A DNA stretch of 64,000 bases from Methanosarcina horonobensis HB-1 = JCM 15518 (GTDB lineage: Archaea; Halobacteriota; Methanosarcinia; Methanosarcinales; Methanosarcinaceae), in the NCBI RefSeq assembly GCF_000970285.1, contig NZ_CP009516.1, positions 3,141,036-3,205,035 of the forward strand. The letters are read 5' to 3'. Numbering within the stretch: the stretch's first letter is position 1; each line of letters starts with the position of its first letter. This document shows positions 53,499-63,020 of the stretch, in pieces. The notes under the pieces are model-generated. The model saw nothing but the letters and a program-made list of their open reading frames with translations, made no database searches and was not told the origin of the DNA. The position numbers were made by a program, and so were the translations under genes.

Positions 53499-53614
53499 GA
53501 TTAAAAACATACTTATGCGGTTTCTAATGTACAAAATGCGGCAACTCTTGAGGTTGAGAACCAATAAAACAAAAAGAGATAAAAAGATATTCAGAAAAAG
53601 CCTTGAGATTATAC

Positions 53615-53628
53615 GCTGAGGGGGAGAA
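53615..53628. repeat. 14-bp repeat CGCTGAGGGGGAGA, copy 1
   Basis: Matches 57067-57080 exactly, in the same orientation. The other copy continues as a tRNA 3' end, so this may be an old attachment-site half. Confidence 0.45.
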
Positions 53629-53874
53629 ATTAAACCTCGTAGGACTAACCTACAGATTAAAAGATTCTCGTACAGATCCGCAGATTGAGTCAAAGATATA
53701 CAAGTATAAACTTATTCATTACAAATCTTTTAGGAATATGCTTGTTAATTTCGATGAGTAAAGGGTTATTATAAAAAATATAAGAAAAACAGATGCAGTT
53801 TAAAGAATGCCTTCTGATAGTGAAAAAATAGTAGAATTTTTATCAGAAAATATATGGTTTCATTTATTGTCACA

Positions 53875-54185
53875 CTATACAGCCTTATGCTCCAAATCAG
53901 CAATGATTCCAGCCGAGTATTCAGACAGAGGATACTCAACCAGCAATAAATCTGGATCTTCAAGCAGATCATAAATACCTTTTTCTATCAAGGCTGTTGA
54001 TATCCCTCTTCTTCTAAATGCGGGGAACGTGTAAATGTCTATTAATTTCCAGGTATCATAAACCTCACGATCAATATTCACTATATCTTCTACAACGACG
54101 CAAATCCTACAGGAATTCCATTTAATATATACAGATATGAAACTTCCTCAAATCCTATATATTTAGTTAAGGAAGTCCTGGAAAA
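53875..54185 (-). pseudogene. GNAT acetyltransferase, frameshifted
   Basis: Reading from about 54185, EEVSYLYILNGIPVGFAS stops at TAG. The adjacent frame continues VVEDIVNIDREVYDTW, KLIDIYTFPAFRRRGIS and TALIEKGIYDLL to the end at 53875. The RRRGISTAL block is the acetyl-CoA motif of GNATs. The two frames join into one protein with one shift, so the gene is broken. Confidence 0.7.
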
Positions 54186-54208
54186 GGAAAGGCAAAGAAA
54201 AAGGAATT

Positions 54209-54474
54209 TCACTTATATGCTTTGTCGTGAGGACTAAACTTCAAAAAAAGTGATGGTTTCATTAGTATTATCTATTTCATAGATTAGAACGAAGTGGCCA
54301 ATGTGAACTCTGCGAAGTCCTTTAAGTACATTCCGCAAAGGTTTTCCACACTCTGGATTTTCTAGAATACTGTTGACAGTTTTTCTTAAAACGGCTATAA
54401 AGAACAGAATCCTTTTTGAAGAGGACCTTTGTTTCTTTTTCAAAATCGGGTGATAAAACTACCTGATATGTCAT
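54209..54474 (-). pseudogene. RelE/ParE-type toxin, frameshifted
   Basis: ATG 54474 starts MTYQVVLSPDFEKETKVLFK, shifts, then continues as TVNSILENPECGKPLRNVLK, GLRRVHIGHFVLIYEID and TFFEV with a premature stop at 54236. The next frame supplies SPHDKAYK ending at 54209. Two shifts interrupt a normal-length RelE-fold mRNase. It is coupled by ATGA to an antitoxin remnant. Confidence 0.7.
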
Positions 54475-54570
54475 TTTTCAAGGCTGCTAAAAAAGTCATC
54501 TACTATGTTGAACTTGATACCTTTCCCGTTGAGGACTTCTAAATGAATTCCTGGGAAGAAAAACTATTTA
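54471..54570 (-). pseudogene. Antitoxin C-terminal remnant
   Basis: The last 25 or so codons of an antitoxin (EVLNGKGIKFNIVDDFFSSL then EK-stop at 54471) run into an in-frame stop near 54570, with no DNA-binding N-terminus. The break coincides with the start of the ATPase gene at 54543 on the other strand, so the truncation may mark an insertion junction. Confidence 0.55.
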
Positions 54571-55150
54571 AAGAATTTATCCCTTCTCCTGGCCAGCACG
54601 GCTTGGAGATCGGGAACACAGGATCAGGAAAAACAACCCTCATGTATTGGCTACTGTACGGCTTTCTCAACGCTCGGACTCAACTCCCTCCAGACCTCTG
54701 GGAAACTCTTCTCTGGTTTGATAGGGGGAAATCCTCCGAAGTCCTGCAGCTCTCCAGGATGGCACCCGTCAGACTCGTAGCATCCTCTCATGGCTGGCGA
54801 AAACTCCGGCCAGGCATAAGGTCCTCTTTCCAGTTCTTAATCTCCCTCAGAGGCGCCAACTATCCCAGCAGCGAACAGCCAAAGCTCTACCGATTCAACC
54901 GCTCTTTGAAAAACTCGAACCCGGCCAGGCAATAATAGCCTTTCCCACAAAGACCTTTACGGATAAGATCCGGATACCCTGGTACGGAAAAGGTGAAGAC
55001 CTCGGCTATATCAGATATCTCGGCCATCTCGAACCCGAACACAAACCCAGGACATCAAAATCAAGCGTATCCCTTGAAGATCTCGTAACAAGCCCTAAAA
55101 GCCGTAGTTCCGCAATCATAAAGGCGGTGAAACATGGAAATAAACGGAGA
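54543..55150 (+). pseudogene. P-loop ATPase (virus/plasmid type), frameshifted
   Basis: ATG 54543. Walker A GLEIGNTGSGKTTLMYWLLY (about 21-40), then LLWFDRGKSSEVL. The first frame ends at 54935. A -1 frame takes over before about 54850 and reads LFEKLEPGQAIIAFPTKTFT, then IRIPWYGKGEDLGYIRYLGH and further sense sequence to about 55130. Together they would make a protein of roughly 200 residues, similar in size to small HerA/Zot-like packaging or morphogenesis ATPases. No slippery heptamer is evident at the switch, so it is probably a pseudogene. Confidence 0.6.
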
Positions 55151-55259
55151 ATTTATTTATTTTTCAACTCTGGATTTATGCATAATTTGTATTCTCCTTG
55201 CAATCATTTTTCAGTATCTATTTTTCAAATTAACCGAATCACGTGCAAGAGAAATATAA
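55134..55259 (+). CDS. 41-residue one-helix membrane peptide
   Basis: ATG 55134 with GGCGGTGA upstream, overlapping the ATPase end. One strong membrane span (LDLCIICILLAIIFQYLFF) followed by a short polar tail. Small membrane peptides next to a P-loop ATPase are typical of small archaeal viruses and plasmids. Confidence 0.5.
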   Translation: MEINGEFIYFSTLDLCIICILLAIIFQYLFFKLTESRAREI

Positions 55260-55305
55260 AAACGTATAAATTCCATAAAATCCATACTTTTTTTGGGAGT
55301 GCAGT

Positions 55306-55632
55306 ATGGAACTACATTCTATCGTAGTGGCTAGGGACCTCTGTTTAGGGAAAAAAGACCGAAGACAAGTCTGGCTGTCTATGGAAAAATTTTTGATTCA
55401 AACCATTGACATGCACGGTTTAGACCTCAGCAACACAATCAATACTGCCGTAGAAAAATACCTTCAGGAAAAACAATATCTCATGCCTGAAACCCTTGAA
55501 ACCCTCGGGTCCTGCTCAGTCCTAGAAAAACAGATACTCGAAAACGGAATTAACGCAATAGCCGAACACATAACCACTCAAAACATGCACATGCTCGTTT
55601 CCAGAATCAAAGAAAGCGTTCCACAATCTTAA
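55306..55632 (+). CDS. Hypothetical element protein
   Basis: 108 residues from ATG 55306 (upstream GGGAGTGCAGT). Mixed helical composition: VWLSMEKFLIQTIDMHGLDL then a C-terminal helix. The N-terminal half could be RHH- or HTH-like, but no family is recognised. Lies between the ATPase remnant and the recombinase. Confidence 0.45.
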   Translation: MELHSIVVARDLCLGKKDRRQVWLSMEKFLIQTIDMHGLDLSNTINTAVEKYLQEKQYLMPETLETLGSCSVLEKQILENGINAIAEHITTQNMHMLVSRIKESVPQS

Positions 55633-55664
55633 TACAGTTGAAATTATATTTTCTTTAGTTTTCG

Positions 55665-56612
55665 ATGTACGAAAATAACCTCATTCTGGATTTAGGTATA
55701 GACCGGGATCTTCCCGAAACATCTTTTCTTACTGATTTTTTACTAGACTGTCAGGTCCGTAATTTCTCTCCCAGGACAATCCAGTCTTACAAAAGCAACC
55801 TGAAATACTTCTTATCCCAGCATTCCATAGACCTTACACCTGAGGTCCTCAAAGACTTCCTGGTCCACATCAGGGGTAAAAAACACTATTCTCCGTCTAC
55901 CGTGGAAAACTATTTCGCGGTGCTCTCTTCTTTTTTTGATTGGCTTGAATGGGAAGGAGTAATCGAAAAAAACATAGTCCCACAATTCCGGAAACGGTAC
56001 TTAAGATACTACAAAGAACAAAGGCACGAAGAGCGCCAGCTAATCAGCCTGGAGCAAATGCGGGCCCTGATAGATTCAGCTGAATGGATAGGCTGGAAAG
56101 CCATGTTTATCTTTTTTGCCAAGACCGGGATAAGAAGGCAGGAACTTATAGACCTCGACCTCAAGGACCTCTACATAGAAAGCAGGTATGCAGTCCTGAA
56201 ACCTCACGCAAAACGAAGTAATAGAGTAGTCTTTTTTGATCAAGAATGTGCTCAGATCCTCGAGGCCTGGCTATCCTGGCGCCAGGAACACAAAATCAAA
56301 TCGAAGACGCTCTTTGTAGGGGTGCAGGGTTCCAGGATCTCTAGGGACGCAGTCTATGAAACAACCACAGAACACGCTCAGCGTTTAGGCTTCCATAACT
56401 CCAAAAGCCGACTACACGAAAAATTCACCCCTCACTGTTTTAGGCACTGGTTTACTACTTGGCTAAGGCGCTCTGGCTGCCCTCGTTCAATTATACAAGA
56501 ACTCCGGGGTGATTCCAGGAAGGAAGCCATAGACATTTATGACCACATAACCCAGATAGAAATAAAAGAGAGTTACTTAAGATACATTCCACAGCTGAAA
56601 ACAAATATATGA
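55665..56612 (+). CDS. Tyrosine recombinase (XerA/integrase type)
   Basis: 315 residues. N-terminal SAM-like core-binding domain (about 20-110). The catalytic domain has Arg in TGIRRQELIDLDL (about 162-174), HCFRHWFTTWLRR (about 257-269) with H-x-x-R, and Tyr in DIYDHITQIEIKESYL (near 300). Full length and intact. It is the likely integrase of the element whose ATPase is broken. It may act at tRNA-like sites. Confidence 0.85.
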   Translation: MYENNLILDLGIDRDLPETSFLTDFLLDCQVRNFSPRTIQSYKSNLKYFLSQHSIDLTPEVLKDFLVHIRGKKHYSPSTVENYFAVLSSFFDWLEWEGVIEKNIVPQFRKRYLRYYKEQRHEERQLISLEQMRALIDSAEWIGWKAMFIFFAKTGIRRQELIDLDLKDLYIESRYAVLKPHAKRSNRVVFFDQECAQILEAWLSWRQEHKIKSKTLFVGVQGSRISRDAVYETTTEHAQRLGFHNSKSRLHEKFTPHCFRHWFTTWLRRSGCPRSIIQELRGDSRKEAIDIYDHITQIEIKESYLRYIPQLKTNI

Positions 56613-56648
56613 AAAAAGTTTATATGTTTTTCATCTTTACTTTTTTCT

Positions 56649-56942
56649 ATGGGAGTGTTAAAACGGATTGATTCAGTGATAATAACTGAATCAAATAAGG
56701 AGTACATGCGGTTATATAACTTTACTAAGTTTTGCCTCAAAGCTGGTTTTTATTGGCTTTGTTTTAGAACGGGTGCATTCCTCGTAATTCTCCTTTGTCT
56801 CAACATAAACAAAGATGCTGCATTTCAGGAAAGCATAAAAGATGGGTTTCCATGGTTATCATCAACAGCTTCATTTATTGATTCAATTTTTCTCTTTACT
56901 TTCTTGCTTATACTATTGGCTCTATTCTATATTTGTTATTAA
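56649..56942 (+). CDS. Two-span membrane protein, unknown
   Basis: 97 codons from ATG 56649. Two hydrophobic helices (about 36-57 and 75-96) with a polar loop. No SD recognised. Same direction as the recombinase, 36 bp downstream. Confidence 0.45.
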   Translation: MGVLKRIDSVIITESNKEYMRLYNFTKFCLKAGFYWLCFRTGAFLVILLCLNINKDAAFQESIKDGFPWLSSTASFIDSIFLFTFLLILLALFYICY

Positions 56943-57342
56943 TTCAATAGTGAAGCCAAAAAAAAGATAAGTTTGTCTTTCAGTGCCGTGACTCAAAAAG
57001 AAGATAGTTTCTTAACAAACGAACAAAAAAAGACCATTTTTAGTAATGTTAACCAGAGAAGTTAGGCGCTGAGGGGGAGATTCGAACTCTTATAGAGCCC
57101 GACATTACCCCTTACATGTACTCACTAGAAGCTGATATTATCGTAAAACCTTTGCGTCATTTTGAGAATGTCGAGCTTGCAACTTTTTAAAAAAGTTTCC
57201 ATCCTAAATGACAAGGTCCCTGTTACCAGCAGGTCGAAATACAGCCTAACATATAATGACCTCTGAAAGTTTAAAAAGCTTTTTATATTTATAAATTTCA
57301 ACTAAAAGTTAGACGGAAATTTTACCAGAATTTTCGTACTAA
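56943..57342. other. Gene-free stretch with tRNA 3'-end-like segment
   Basis: It holds the tRNA-like att candidate at 57067-57091 and a TATA-like tract near 57280-57295 (TTTATATTTATAAA) for the downstream operon. No gene seen. Confidence 0.45.
57067..57091 (-). repeat. tRNA 3'-end fragment, putative attachment site
   Basis: On the minus strand the sequence reads GAGTTCGAATCTCCCCCTCA then GCG. This fits the T-loop (TTCGAAT), 3' T-stem and 3' acceptor strand of a tRNA. The rest of the tRNA is absent on the right. Its first 14 bases on the plus strand are repeated at 53615. Such 3'-end fragments are typical integrase att sites. Confidence 0.5.
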
Positions 57343-57633
57343 TTGAATGAGCTTGCAATAATGAAAAATGATACAATAGATAGCGGAAGCTATGCTTTAA
57401 CTCAGAATAGTAACGTAGTTGAAAACACAAAGTTTTTTTCACAATGTGATGAAAGATTACGTACCTGTTGTCCTTACTGTGGATCTATTAGAATATACAG
57501 AAGGACCAGAAAGGGCGGTTATGTCTGTTCTAACTCAGACTGTCTAAGATCATTTAACATCCCAGCATCTAAATTTACCGGAGTTAGCGGCGGTAGTTTA
57601 CCTACATCTCTTTTCAAGGGGGTCCGGGCATGA
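57343..57633 (+). CDS. Zinc-ribbon protein, first gene of the mini-operon
   Basis: 96 codons from TTG 57343 (ATG 57361 possible). CCPYCGSIRIYRRTRKGGYV then CSNSDC forms a zinc ribbon of the IS/transcription-factor kind (about 42-68). The stop overlaps the next ATG (ATGA). Probable DNA- or RNA-binding protein. Confidence 0.6.
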   Translation: MNELAIMKNDTIDSGSYALTQNSNVVENTKFFSQCDERLRTCCPYCGSIRIYRRTRKGGYVCSNSDCLRSFNIPASKFTGVSGGSLPTSLFKGVRA

Positions 57634-57743
57634 AGGTAATATCCAGTATAGGTCTTTGCCTTTTAACTTTCATTATTTGCCTCTTCTTCGGTCTTCTGAT
57701 GTTCACCTTCTGTTTTTCTCTCCTCTCGGGGGTGGGTCTGTGA
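57630..57743 (+). CDS. 37-residue one-helix membrane peptide
   Basis: ATG 57630 overlaps the previous stop, with AAGGGGGTCC upstream. Almost entirely hydrophobic (LCLLTFIICLFFGLLMFTFC). Its stop overlaps a GTG for the next peptide (GTGA). Confidence 0.5.
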   Translation: MKVISSIGLCLLTFIICLFFGLLMFTFCFSLLSGVGL

Positions 57744-57835
57744 GTCGGGATGAGATTATATTTTTCACTCTTTTTTATTTGAGTATCTTTCTTATAGGGC
57801 TTGCCTCCGGGATCTGTTCGGAGGTGTGGCTTTAA
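57740..57835 (+). CDS. 31-residue one-helix membrane peptide
   Basis: GTG 57740 overlaps the previous stop; GGGGGTGG lies upstream. MSRDEIIFFTLFYLSIFLIG is a charged N-terminus plus membrane helix. Stop TAA overlaps the next ATG (TAATG). Confidence 0.5.
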   Translation: MSRDEIIFFTLFYLSIFLIGLASGICSEVWL

Positions 57836-58215
57836 TGGCGCCAGAATCAAATGCCCTTGCTGCCCGGAACGGTTGCCTTATTGAGAAGATTGTCAGGACC
57901 CTATATCCTGACGCTCAATTTGATTATAAGGGAATAGTTGACCTCAAAATAAATGGGCAGCCTGTAGAGATTAAATCCTGCCAGGTTTCTGTATCTGATC
58001 ATAGTCACGGATCTGGGACCAGATCAGGAAGGTTTGCCTTCTCTGCAGAGCAGCACAAAAGCCTGATTCAAAATAAGGGTGAGTATATCCTGATGGTTCA
58101 TAAAAGTGGAGAACCATTCCTTTTTTTCAGGATCCCTGCAGCAGCCTTAAAAATATCTGAATTTTCCGGAGTCAAAAGTGTCTGCTGGAAATCAGTAATT
58201 TCAAGGGCGGTGTAA
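57835..58215 (+). CDS. PD-(D/E)XK-type nuclease, resolvase-like
   Basis: 126 residues. GCLIEKIVRTLYPDAQFDYK then GIVDLKINGQPVEIKSCQV reads as the core E...D-x(n)-E-x-K of the PD-(D/E)XK fold (Asp near 44, Glu-Ile-Lys near 53-55). Later SAEQHKSLIQNKGEYILMVH is a typical Q/H helix. Length fits small Holliday-junction resolvase or endonuclease homologues. Overlapping start suggests coupling with the membrane peptides. Confidence 0.65.
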   Translation: MAPESNALAARNGCLIEKIVRTLYPDAQFDYKGIVDLKINGQPVEIKSCQVSVSDHSHGSGTRSGRFAFSAEQHKSLIQNKGEYILMVHKSGEPFLFFRIPAAALKISEFSGVKSVCWKSVISRAV

Positions 58216-58218
58216 TTT

Positions 58219-58341
58219 GTGGCTGCCAGAATAATTGCTGAACTTCCTGCTCGCTCCTTCCTTAATTATGAGGAAATCAGAGCTAGGCTCAGGGAGTTCA
58301 TAGACATTATAGAGCTACAGCCAAAGGAGGAAAATAAATGA
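58219..58341 (+). CDS. 40-residue helical peptide
   Basis: GTG 58219 (upstream GGGCGGTG inside the nuclease gene) to TGA 58341, which overlaps the next ATG as ATGA. Amphipathic helical sequence (NYEEIRARLREFIDIIELQP). The overlap on the right supports translation. Confidence 0.45.
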   Translation: MAARIIAELPARSFLNYEEIRARLREFIDIIELQPKEENK

Positions 58342-58880
58342 ACTCTGTAGCTGCAGAAATGTTTGGAACTCCTTTAAACCTGGGATCAGGGGAAGTTGTC
58401 AAGGAAGCCATAAAGGAACTTTTCCGAGAAGAACCCGAGTTTTTTCAAGCTGCCCTGCAGGGGATACTTTCAGAGATTTCAGAACGCATAGATCACACAC
58501 AAATGGAACAGATTAAGGATAGGTCAAGGATTGCAGATCTGGAACTTCTCCTAGGACTTGATGAGGAGATCCAAGATCCTGAAGATCCATACTATCCGGA
58601 AAAAAAAGAGAGACTAGAGGAACTCAGACAGAAAACTAGCTTTATCCGGGAGATTCAAGGAAATCCTGAGCAGAGTTTAGAAAACCATCTCTATGAAGAA
58701 CTCAAACGGAGCCTTTCAATGAAAAACAGAGATATCATGAACTTGTTCGGATGGGATAAAAAGAATACTATGAAGGCGACACGATTGATGCAAAAAATGG
58801 CGGAGACGTTCTCTGATGTGGTTTATGAGCCAGTTCCAGGAAAGAAAAGAGTAATGAGAATCCACCTAAAAAAACAATAA
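58338..58880 (+). CDS. Putative DNA-binding protein, last gene of the mini-operon
   Basis: 180 residues; AAAGGAGG 8 bp before ATG 58338. The N-terminal half is helical with an acidic middle. The C-terminal 60 residues (LYEELKRSLSMKNRDIMNLF...TMKATRLMQKMAETFSDVVY...KRVMRIHLKK) look like a winged helix. The iterated palindromes lie just downstream, so it could bind them as repressor or replication initiator. No family recognised. Confidence 0.55.
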   Translation: MNSVAAEMFGTPLNLGSGEVVKEAIKELFREEPEFFQAALQGILSEISERIDHTQMEQIKDRSRIADLELLLGLDEEIQDPEDPYYPEKKERLEELRQKTSFIREIQGNPEQSLENHLYEELKRSLSMKNRDIMNLFGWDKKNTMKATRLMQKMAETFSDVVYEPVPGKKRVMRIHLKKQ

Positions 58881-58897
58881 AAGTTTACGTTGTAAAA

Positions 58898-58938
58898 TTC
58901 AAACATTATGTTTAAACATTTCAAACATGATGTTTGAA
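58898..58938. promoter_or_regulatory. Two 19-bp palindromes, left pair
   Basis: TTCAAACATTATGTTTAAA (58898-58916, one mismatch) and TTCAAACATGATGTTTGAA (58920-58938, perfect about its centre) lie 22 bp apart, about two helical turns, so bound proteins would sit on one face. Confidence 0.8.
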
Positions 58939-59152
58939 TTTTTGATGAAAAAAGGTGAAAATTGTGATACCATTTATATAGTGACTGAATGAGGGAAAGA
59001 TAATTTCCTCAAAATGAAAAAGTGATACAAGGAAAGTTGTGTTACTTGGGCAAAAATCCAAAATTTTCTCTTATTTTTTATCTCTCTTATTTTATATTAT
59101 CTTCATAACTTGTAAATGAAATTTGTAAAATGAATCCTATCTGTTACAAAAG

Positions 59153-59190
59153 TTCAAACATCATGTTTGAAACGTTTGAAAATGTTTGAA
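59153..59190. promoter_or_regulatory. 19-bp palindrome plus half-sites, right group
   Basis: TTCAAACATCATGTTTGAA (59153-59171) followed by half-sites ACGTTTGAA (59172-59180) and ATGTTTGAA (59182-59190), spaced at about 9-10 bp. Same motif as the left pair, 215 bp away. Confidence 0.8.
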
Positions 59191-59332
59191 ATTATATTTT
59201 CGCAACCAGTAATCTCTTTTTTGTAGATAATCCATGAGATTTCAGAATAAAGTAGTTAGTTACTAACAAAAAAGAACCTGAAGTAGCAAGCAGGAATCGA
59301 TAATTCAAGAAAGTTGTCTATTTCGGTGTCTT

Positions 59333-59896
59333 CTAATTGACTTGTCTCGAAGTTCGGATGTATTTTTCAAAGAAAGAAAACACATCACCTAAGACGTGTT
59401 CATGTAAATCAATGTCGTTATCATACTCAACTGACACAACATGATATCTTTCCGTCCGTAATTCTTCCTTTAATAATGTGCCCATGGCAGGAATACCATT
59501 GTGAGTCTCCTCAAACACTCTACACTTTGAGAGTAAATTATTTCCAATTACATATTTTAATTCACTGGTAACGCTATCTGTTTTTCCCCTACATGTAAAG
59601 ACAAGTATATTTAGATCGGCAAACTTCAAACAATCAAAGCTCTTATCAAGGTTTGAGCTAATTGATTTTTCATCAGAAGGGAAATCTTCAACAATGTAAG
59701 TGCTGATATAACCATTATTTCTCAAATAGTCCCGAAGTTTAATCAGCCTTTCCTTTTCTCCCAAATGCTCTCCATCTCCAGGTGGATTATATGCACCATA
59801 GATGATAATGTGAATCCTGCCTTTATGAGAGATAATAGACTCTGCTTTTTTTTGTTGAAAAATATTCCATCGCTCTGAAGTATTTTTGGATATCAC
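59333..59896 (-). CDS. TIR/deoxyribosyltransferase-like Rossmannoid protein
   Basis: 187 residues. A first strand and loop IHIIIYGAYNPPGDGEHLGE (about 28-47), then ERLIKLRDYLRNNGYISTYI, then ADLNILVFTCRGKTDSVTSE (about 93-112) with a possible catalytic Glu. The order resembles TIR or nucleoside 2-deoxyribosyltransferase folds, which cleave N-glycosidic bonds of nucleotides. In mobile DNA such proteins are often defence effectors. This is a weak, fold-level resemblance. It diverges from the gene at 59993. Confidence 0.5.
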   Translation of the reverse strand: MISKNTSERWNIFQQKKAESIISHKGRIHIIIYGAYNPPGDGEHLGEKERLIKLRDYLRNNGYISTYIVEDFPSDEKSISSNLDKSFDCLKFADLNILVFTCRGKTDSVTSELKYVIGNNLLSKCRVFEETHNGIPAMGTLLKEELRTERYHVVSVEYDNDIDLHEHVLGDVFSFFEKYIRTSRQVN

Positions 59897-59992
59897 ACAA
59901 TTTTAGTTATTTTTACGACATAAAAAAGTATAAGTAAAATCAGTTATACTAAAGTAAATTAAATTATACGTAATTTGATGGAGGAGATTACT

Positions 59993-60511
59993 ATGGGCAT
60001 AGATGAAAATGAAAAAATAAAAGCGTATGCGAACGAATTGCCTGCTGAACTTAGGCGAGCAATCGATGCGTTGAATAGTGATATTGGTTTGGCCGTTTTT
60101 TTTGTACTATTCAAATATGGCGAAATGTCGTTTTCACAAATAATGAGCGAATTAGATATCCCATCAAATTACAGTAGCAAATTAACATACCACATCAAAA
60201 AACTGCAAAAAGGTTCATTGGTTAAAAATGAATATATTAAAAAGGAAAACGTAGATAGTTATTCCTTTTACGATATCACAGAGTTTGGAGAAGGAATTAT
60301 CAATAATTTGATGAACGCAATTCAGGTACCACAGTCGAGTAATTATCTCATACAAACGTTAGATGAAAACTCCACCACCAGTCCAATGACAAGAATTATG
60401 TTAAATTTGGACAGCAATGATAGTAAATTTAATGTAGACTGTGCAGCTGCCTCTGATAGTGTCATTAAAGTTTTGTTAAACCAATCTGAAGCTACTATGA
60501 TGGCAAATTAA
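59993..60511 (+). CDS. ArsR-like winged-helix regulator
   Basis: 172 residues from ATG 59993, which has GGAGGAG upstream; earlier in-frame starts at 59975 and 59978 sit on that SD. Winged helix about 30-110 (FSQIMSELDIPSNYSSKLTY as the HTH, IKKENVDSYSFYDITEFGEG as the wing). C-terminal part is polar with no obvious ligand site. Divergent from the TIR-like gene, which it may control. Confidence 0.7.
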   Translation: MGIDENEKIKAYANELPAELRRAIDALNSDIGLAVFFVLFKYGEMSFSQIMSELDIPSNYSSKLTYHIKKLQKGSLVKNEYIKKENVDSYSFYDITEFGEGIINNLMNAIQVPQSSNYLIQTLDENSTTSPMTRIMLNLDSNDSKFNVDCAAASDSVIKVLLNQSEATMMAN

Positions 60512-62387: not shown

Positions 62388-63020
62388 GTGTATACTTACT
62401 TTGGTGATTTTTTGGTAAAATACCCTAAATCAGGTTATGAAAAAGATTCTGAAGCTTTACATTTCTATGTGAAAGATGTAAGAATCCTTACTCCTAAAGA
62501 ATATGAAGCATTAAAAGCCACTATTCCAAAAGATCAGCATAAAACAACTTTAGATATTCTTCTAATTACAGGTATGCGCTACGCAGAGCTTTTGAGGCTC
62601 TATGATAATCCTGCCTGGTACAATGAGAAAAGAAATATAATTCATCTCCCGGAAGAGGCACAAAAGAAACACAAAAGAAGACAGTTAGAAAGAACTATTC
62701 ATCCTTTACCTTCCATGTTCAATTATCTTCTAAAGGACTTCTGGCAGGCCCGTAAACCTCCCTTAGAAAGTACCTGGAATAAGAACCTTCAAAGATGGGC
62801 TATGTCTGCAGGCATAAACCCTTATGGTCTTTCTGTAAAGTCAAGTAGAAAAACACTGGAGTCCTGGTTAATTGCTTCAGGGGTTGTTGAGTCTACCGTA
62901 TGTTTACGGCAGGGTCATGATTCCTTAACCTCTATGCGTCATTATCAGGGGCTTGCCTTTTCAGATGATGAATTAAGAGACATAAAAAAGCAGCTAATCG
63001 CATGGGGTTTCTCGATATAA
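62388..63020 (+). CDS. Short tyrosine recombinase
   Basis: 210 residues from GTG 62388 (no SD). Catalytic-domain motifs TGMRYAELLRLYD (about 64-76), SSRKTLESWLIASG (about 159-172), RQGHDSLTSMRHYQGLAF (about 179-196) with His and the nucleophile Tyr. The usual H-x-x-R is S-x-R here, so one catalytic His is replaced. Truncated N-terminal domain. It resembles integrases of small archaeal viruses. It differs from the recombinase at 55665, so a second element is likely. Confidence 0.8.
   Translation: MYTYFGDFLVKYPKSGYEKDSEALHFYVKDVRILTPKEYEALKATIPKDQHKTTLDILLITGMRYAELLRLYDNPAWYNEKRNIIHLPEEAQKKHKRRQLERTIHPLPSMFNYLLKDFWQARKPPLESTWNKNLQRWAMSAGINPYGLSVKSSRKTLESWLIASGVVESTVCLRQGHDSLTSMRHYQGLAFSDDELRDIKKQLIAWGFSI

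Follow-up and report, generated by a model that had tools for sequence, protein, structure and literature searches.

The six small genes at positions 57343-58880 of the window (the whole stretch of 64,000 nucleotides that was analysed, part of a single-contig 5.02-Mb genome, G000) are, close to certainly, the left-end operon of an integrated element and not a free-standing module. As an explanation of the whole, it is judged probable that they form the early operon of this element (element B), ending in a DNA-binding initiator protein (DBP) and an origin of replication. The sequence-only reading had proposed either a virus module or a small defence or conflict system with membrane peptides as effectors. 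The former proposal was borne out, as the operon is located at the left end of a tRNA-integrated element that also carries an integrase, a P-loop ATPase and membrane or spike-like proteins.

Array of integrated elements at tRNA-Ser(UGA)

Three elements (A, B and C) are arranged head to tail and share one tRNA-Ser(UGA) gene, with B in the middle. The following features of element A and its borders were located in the window:

53613-53636, no strand: degenerate att copy (7/24 mismatches), likely the left end of decayed element A
54543-54935 (to 55087), + strand: remnant of the element A P-loop ATPase, with an internal deletion
55306-55632, + strand: P108, a small protein encoded between the ATPase and integrase genes of these elements, with 61-66% identity to its counterparts in G005 and G007
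55665-56612, + strand: INT_A, tyrosine integrase of element A (PF00589, 2e-23), just left of att
57066-57089, no strand: att site, an exact 24-bp copy (24/24) of the tRNA-Ser(UGA) 3' end

The att site at 57066-57089 is both the right end of element A and the left end of element B, lies about 270 bp to the left of the first operon gene (ZnR), and is identical to G000:3231640-3231663, the 3' end of the intact tRNA-Ser(UGA) gene located 33.5 kb to the right, beyond the window. At the border between B and C (G000:3213398), a degenerate att copy was found with 19 of 24 positions retained (5 mismatches). Three related integrases were each found shortly before an att copy: INT_A is 82% identical to INT_C, which adjoins the intact tRNA gene, and INT_B lies about 0.9 kb from the att copy at the B/C border. 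Element A (53613-57089) is decayed, element B reaches from 57066 to G000:3213421 (15.3 kb) and element C (18.3 kb) extends to the tRNA gene. In element A, about 130 internal codons of the ATPase gene are gone and a frameshift has arisen; its decay is recent, because the two separated pieces are each still about 82% identical to the intact ATPase of G005.

The same tRNA-Ser site is nearly empty in G025 and G020, since the flanking genes (kinase and tRNA/FKBP) are only about 0.4 kb and about 0.9 kb apart there, respectively, versus 37 kb here. In three other species (G005, G007 and G022), this tRNA-Ser gene is occupied by related elements. Hence the features of tRNA-integrated elements of the tyrosine-integrase type, namely end repeats, an integrase near one end and near-empty sites in relatives, were all found.

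Behind the operon and its cargo, element B encodes a coat-like protein (98 aa), a protein of 125 aa in which two segments are hydrophobic, a spike-like protein of 700 aa that has a signal sequence and, at its C-terminus, a hydrophobic segment, a membrane protein of 318 aa, other small proteins, the P-loop ATPase and the integrase, and this set is syntenic in G005 and G007. The coat-like protein contains one strong transmembrane segment and matches phrog_1646 weakly (E 0.03); the P-loop ATPase was not matched by the Zot/pI Pfam model.

Element B has extra cargo, a part that the G005 and G007 elements do not have in common with it, and may be defective. Encoded in this cargo are a protein of 187 aa with no family match (59333-59896, - strand) and an HTH protein of 178 aa (59975-60511, + strand) that matched Csa3 in PADLOC (3.8e-6). 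The ATPase frame of element B (G000:3209880-3211067) is open for about 340 codons with no ATG, GTG or TTG before the P loop, and a 49-aa membrane peptide ends just upstream of it in the same frame; an unusual start or a stop read-through is possible. A second tyrosine-recombinase-like gene was also observed inside element B (62388-63020), belonging to a different family from INT_A, INT_B and INT_C. Frames similar to it were seen in G147 (49%) and at a second place in this genome, where an integrase remnant and an intact tRNA-Ser(GGA) (G000:3922857) accompany a 31-residue remnant (G000:3918583-3918681) that is 77% identical to the operon nuclease (NUC). This remnant indicates that a similar element once occupied a second tRNA-Ser gene.

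The six genes and the nuclease

The genes of the operon, in order, are as follows:

57361-57633, + strand: ZnR, zinc-ribbon protein of about 90 aa, with homologues in the equivalent position of element C, G005 and G024
57630-57743, + strand: TM37, single-pass membrane peptide (hydropathy 2.78)
57740-57835, + strand: TM31, membrane peptide of 31 aa with a GTG start (hydropathy 2.20), the weakest of the six
57835-58215, + strand: NUC, PD-(D/E)XK nuclease of 126 aa with a PvuII-like predicted fold, phrog_2095 family
58219-58341, + strand: P40, protein of 40 aa with a GTG start; in the G022 element, its homologue immediately precedes DBP
58338-58880, + strand: DBP, predicted winged-helix DNA-binding protein of 180 aa, the proposed replication initiator

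The six open frames on the + strand are present as had been described, and so are the overlaps at four of the five junctions, which were measured as 4 bp for ZnR/TM37 (ATGA), 4 bp for TM37/TM31 (GTGA), 1 bp for TM31/NUC (TAATG) and 4 bp for P40/DBP (ATGA), with a gap of 3 bp between NUC and P40. Overlaps of 1 and 4 bp also occur in the related elements, among which this compact style is ordinary. The start first given for ZnR (TTG 57343, 96 aa) had to be revised: its homologues begin at the residue equivalent to ATG 57361, so the protein most likely starts there and is about 90 aa long. DBP, P40, NUC and TM37 are judged from codon comparison to be coding and under purifying selection, because synonymous change far exceeds amino-acid change between each of them and its homologue (pS 0.79 and pN 0.16 for DBP, 0.72 and 0.17 for P40, 0.68 and 0.17 for NUC, and 0.61 and 0.26 for TM37, the last over 27 codons only). 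Strong Shine-Dalgarno matches precede NUC and DBP (GGAGGTG and GGAGG, respectively). A homologue of TM31 was not detected, which makes it the sole gene of the six without homologue support; it is supported by its position in the operon, one hydrophobic stretch and a weak GGTG.

ZnR matches a TFIIB-type ribbon with an E value of 0.0022, below the cutoff. In element C, the homologue of TM37 (48% identity over 27 aa) is fused to the zinc ribbon in one protein of 125 aa, and this fusion suggests that ZnR and TM37 act together as a membrane-tethered zinc ribbon rather than as a ribbon and a free toxin.

Conservation of the gene order elsewhere had been named as a check on the operon, and the succession of zinc ribbon, membrane peptide, nuclease and replication gene does recur in relatives: at the left ends of element B, element C and the G005 element, a zinc ribbon is followed by zinc and membrane peptides, NUC, and a replication gene or its substitute. 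The genes after the NUC relatives encode an HUH Rep (PF23343), an MCM, a DUF927 protein or a primase of the AEP-TOTE type. As read from the frames, neither element B nor the G022 element has any of these four in recognisable form; a G2P-type rolling-circle Rep, present in element C, G005 and G007, was not seen among the frames of element B. An HUH Rep of its own, the first guess for the element in the window, was not found, and in that place are P40, DBP and a conserved, palindromic, AT-rich intergenic region. The array points to the swapping of replication modules among related elements that use a single tRNA gene; ahead of these modules lie small proteins of the zinc and membrane kinds and a nuclease of the halovirus type.

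The earlier assignment of NUC as a PD-(D/E)XK-like enzyme gained support from a predicted restriction-endonuclease-like fold (pLDDT 86.8) with intact catalytic residues; E17, D36, E45 and K47 are invariant in the alignment of 11 homologues, and the metal-binding residues, on whose retention the assignment had been made to depend, are therefore kept. Among solved structures, the best Foldseek match of the NUC model was PvuII (E 2.5e-4, probability 1.00); Hjc ranked below it (E 0.02) and RecU was also among the matches. NUC was matched by the phrog_2095 profile (2.2e-11) and, in tblastn, by HHTV-1 gp72 (1e-5), and its predicted fold matches three halovirus proteins (SH1 ORF50 and those of HHIV-2 and HHTV-1). 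The family was found in 10 of the 186 genomes of the order, and a scan of genome contigs gave one locus, in G024, on the same contig as this tRNA-Ser gene and about 15 kb from it. M. acetivorans, which served as a named control, also has this family, and together with the conserved gene set this assigns the present genome to Methanosarcina, as had been assumed. Nothing significant was obtained with the NUC profile against PDB sequences, and no match was obtained with NUC against plasmids. In IMG/VR, the aligned NUC query and the NUC of element C gave no match, and the single NUC protein gave one contig, with MCM-like and terminase-like frames (read without profile search).

The G007 and G022 elements have no NUC, so it is optional and not essential for replication, and it is best described as a probable accessory DNA-cleaving enzyme, whose action may be resolvase-like or restriction-like. 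A more specific role, compatible with an initiator and origin at the operon end, is that of a Holliday-junction-type resolvase in the replication machinery of the element. This role is possible rather than probable. It agrees with the position of NUC next to replication genes, with Hjc and RecU among its structural matches, with the intact catalytic residues and with the lack of a methyltransferase partner at most NUC loci; however, PvuII fits the model clearly better than Hjc does, the elements of G007 and G022 dispense with NUC, and in HHTV-1 a Holliday junction resolvase is annotated separately from the NUC homologue. Methyltransferases were found near only two NUC relatives, directly after gp72 in HHTV-1 (gp73) and near the relative in L028. 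The [DNS]PP[YFW] methyltransferase motif was present only near these two homologues, being absent from frames of at least 150 aa in elements B and C and from the stretch of SH1 that was read. A restriction-modification pair was rejected on this motif search, which found no methyltransferase in element B.

DBP and the adjoining intergenic region

The best reading of DBP and the region downstream of it, with a somewhat better than even chance, is that of an initiator with its origin. The features of this region are as follows:

58877-59212, no strand: proposed origin of replication, an AT-rich intergenic region of about 330 bp (25% G+C)
58894-58942, no strand: 20-bp hairpin formed from two palindromes (58898-58916 and 58920-58938), z -4.3
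59153-59171, no strand: third palindrome, TTCAAACATCATGTTTGAA, with an extra half-site at 59182

The C-terminal 70 residues of DBP (110-180) model as a winged helix (HTH and beta wing) with pLDDT 80-89 and the topology expected of such a domain. Its Foldseek matches were weak (best E 0.05) and mostly MarR-type regulators. By sequence, DBP matched no known initiator and, at E values up to 1, no Rep family of Pfam; a match to DUF7845 (Rep-Arvir) was not seen at E up to 1 in a Pfam copy that may not include DUF7845. DBP gave no match against plasmids and phages, nor did the ATPase and the spike-like proteins against phages, and none was found in IMG/VR for DBP, Rep, ATPase or the palindrome block. 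Among the 186 genomes, one intact relative of DBP (71% identical, in the G022 element) and one decayed relative (in G009) were found. The initiator reading is weakened by the small number of intact DBP loci known (two), by the missing sequence match to an initiator and the weak structural matches, and by the possibly defective state of element B.

The region behind DBP is 85% identical to that of the G022 element over 329 bp, with conservation stopping at about 59212, and this identity is retained while the synonymous sites of DBP itself are saturated (pS 0.79). The gene and the region travel together, giving one 912-bp match (77%) to the G022 element, where a homologous hairpin has a z value of -4.9. 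Three palindromes of the form TTCAAACATnATGTTTGAA were counted in the 64 kb versus 0 in shuffles, 6 of the 7 half-sites of the window fall within 300 bp, and the perfect 20-mer palindrome was found, among 112 genomes, only at the two DBP loci. At L064 (G009:826730), the decayed DBP gene of G009 is directly followed by different palindromic repeats (TTAAAACATCGTGTTAAAACATG) with AACATCGTGTT cores, a possible third pair of initiator and repeats with another specificity.

Under the initiator reading, the six genes would accordingly act early and on the replication side, as the left-end operon of the virus-like element B. Excision and circularisation would join the integrase end to the operon at attP. 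The winged helix of DBP would bind the palindromes that directly follow the DBP gene, and replication would start at that place, with DBP taking the role that a rolling-circle Rep, an MCM or a primase has in the relatives. NUC would act as an accessory DNA-cleaving enzyme in replication or takeover, and ZnR and TM37 as an early, possibly membrane-tethered, DNA-binding pair. Whether DBP further represents a new archaeal initiator family, forming with the 330-bp origin a mobile replicon cassette that replaces HUH Rep, MCM or primase in virus-like elements of Methanosarcina, is evenly balanced.

Alternatively, DBP may act in transcriptional repression or in partition, with the palindromes as its operator or centromere, and element B may be replicated by host proteins or by a helper such as element C. 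MarR-type regulators are the best, if weak, structural neighbours of DBP, palindromic sites fit dimeric repressors, and the adjacent element C has an HUH Rep. Nevertheless, this alternative is considered unlikely, because the palindromes are located downstream of DBP between converging genes and not in the operon promoter, because the conserved region spans about 330 bp and includes an AT-rich part and a hairpin of 20 bp, and because DBP occupies the position of the replication gene of the relatives in elements that both lack a recognised replication gene.

A defence module, in which NUC would cut foreign or host DNA and the membrane peptides would be toxic effectors released on infection, could draw on the PvuII restriction endonuclease as the best structural match, on the two relatives beside or near a methyltransferase (HHTV-1 gp72/gp73 and L028) and on the optional nature of NUC, but it is very improbable and was rejected, as was a toxin system, since PADLOC models matched none of the six operon proteins (0/6), the methyltransferase motif is absent in B, C and most other NUC loci, the neighbours of NUC are replication genes, and the TM37 homologue of element C, fused to a zinc ribbon, speaks against the effector role first suggested for the membrane peptides.

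Methanogen genetics has only a small stock of replicons and viruses to draw on. If the segment of P40, DBP and origin (about 1 kb) replicates by itself, Methanosarcina vectors would gain a compact origin, and the initiator would be of a new type. The array also makes the function of the NUC family directly testable in a genetically tractable genus.

Comparison with known systems

NUC and PvuII have the D...ExK active-site pattern in common, but their identity is 14% with a TM-score of about 0.57, and element B is without the partner methyltransferase. The nucleases of phrog_2095 (HHTV-1 gp72, SH1 ORF50 and that of HHIV-2) belong to the same family as NUC and differ in hosts, virus types and neighbours.

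Archaeal inovirus-like proviruses have been reported in Methanosarcinaceae (Roux et al. 2019, PMC6813254). Element B shares with them the host family, integration, an integrase, a P-loop ATPase and small membrane proteins, and its order of small coat-like protein, 700-aa spike-like protein, 318-aa protein and ATPase resembles the inovirus order; the likeness extends to its relatives, which have a G2P-type Rep (PF23343). It is, however, a likeness of gene content and order only, the elements measure 15.3 kb (B) and 18.3 kb (C), and B is without a Rep. Inovirus was not adopted as the class of element B, because the diagnostic ATPase match is absent and the coat match is weak.

A parallel that has been tested is the temperate pleolipovirus SNJ2, in which the initiator gene is the last of a series of overlapping ORFs, the ori lies downstream of it, and the series becomes linked to the integrase gene on excision (PMC13107129). 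Element B differs from it in that DBP is a small winged-helix protein without a Pfam Rep match, the integration site is a Methanosarcina tRNA-Ser gene and the structural genes are not recognisably pleolipoviral. In common with the SNJ2 Rep-Arvir operon (PMC13107129), element B is integrated and carries compact, overlapping small ORFs opposite the integrase end, and in both the last gene adjoins a region of inverted repeat and hairpin downstream of the initiator, which is the ori in SNJ2 and the proposed origin in element B.
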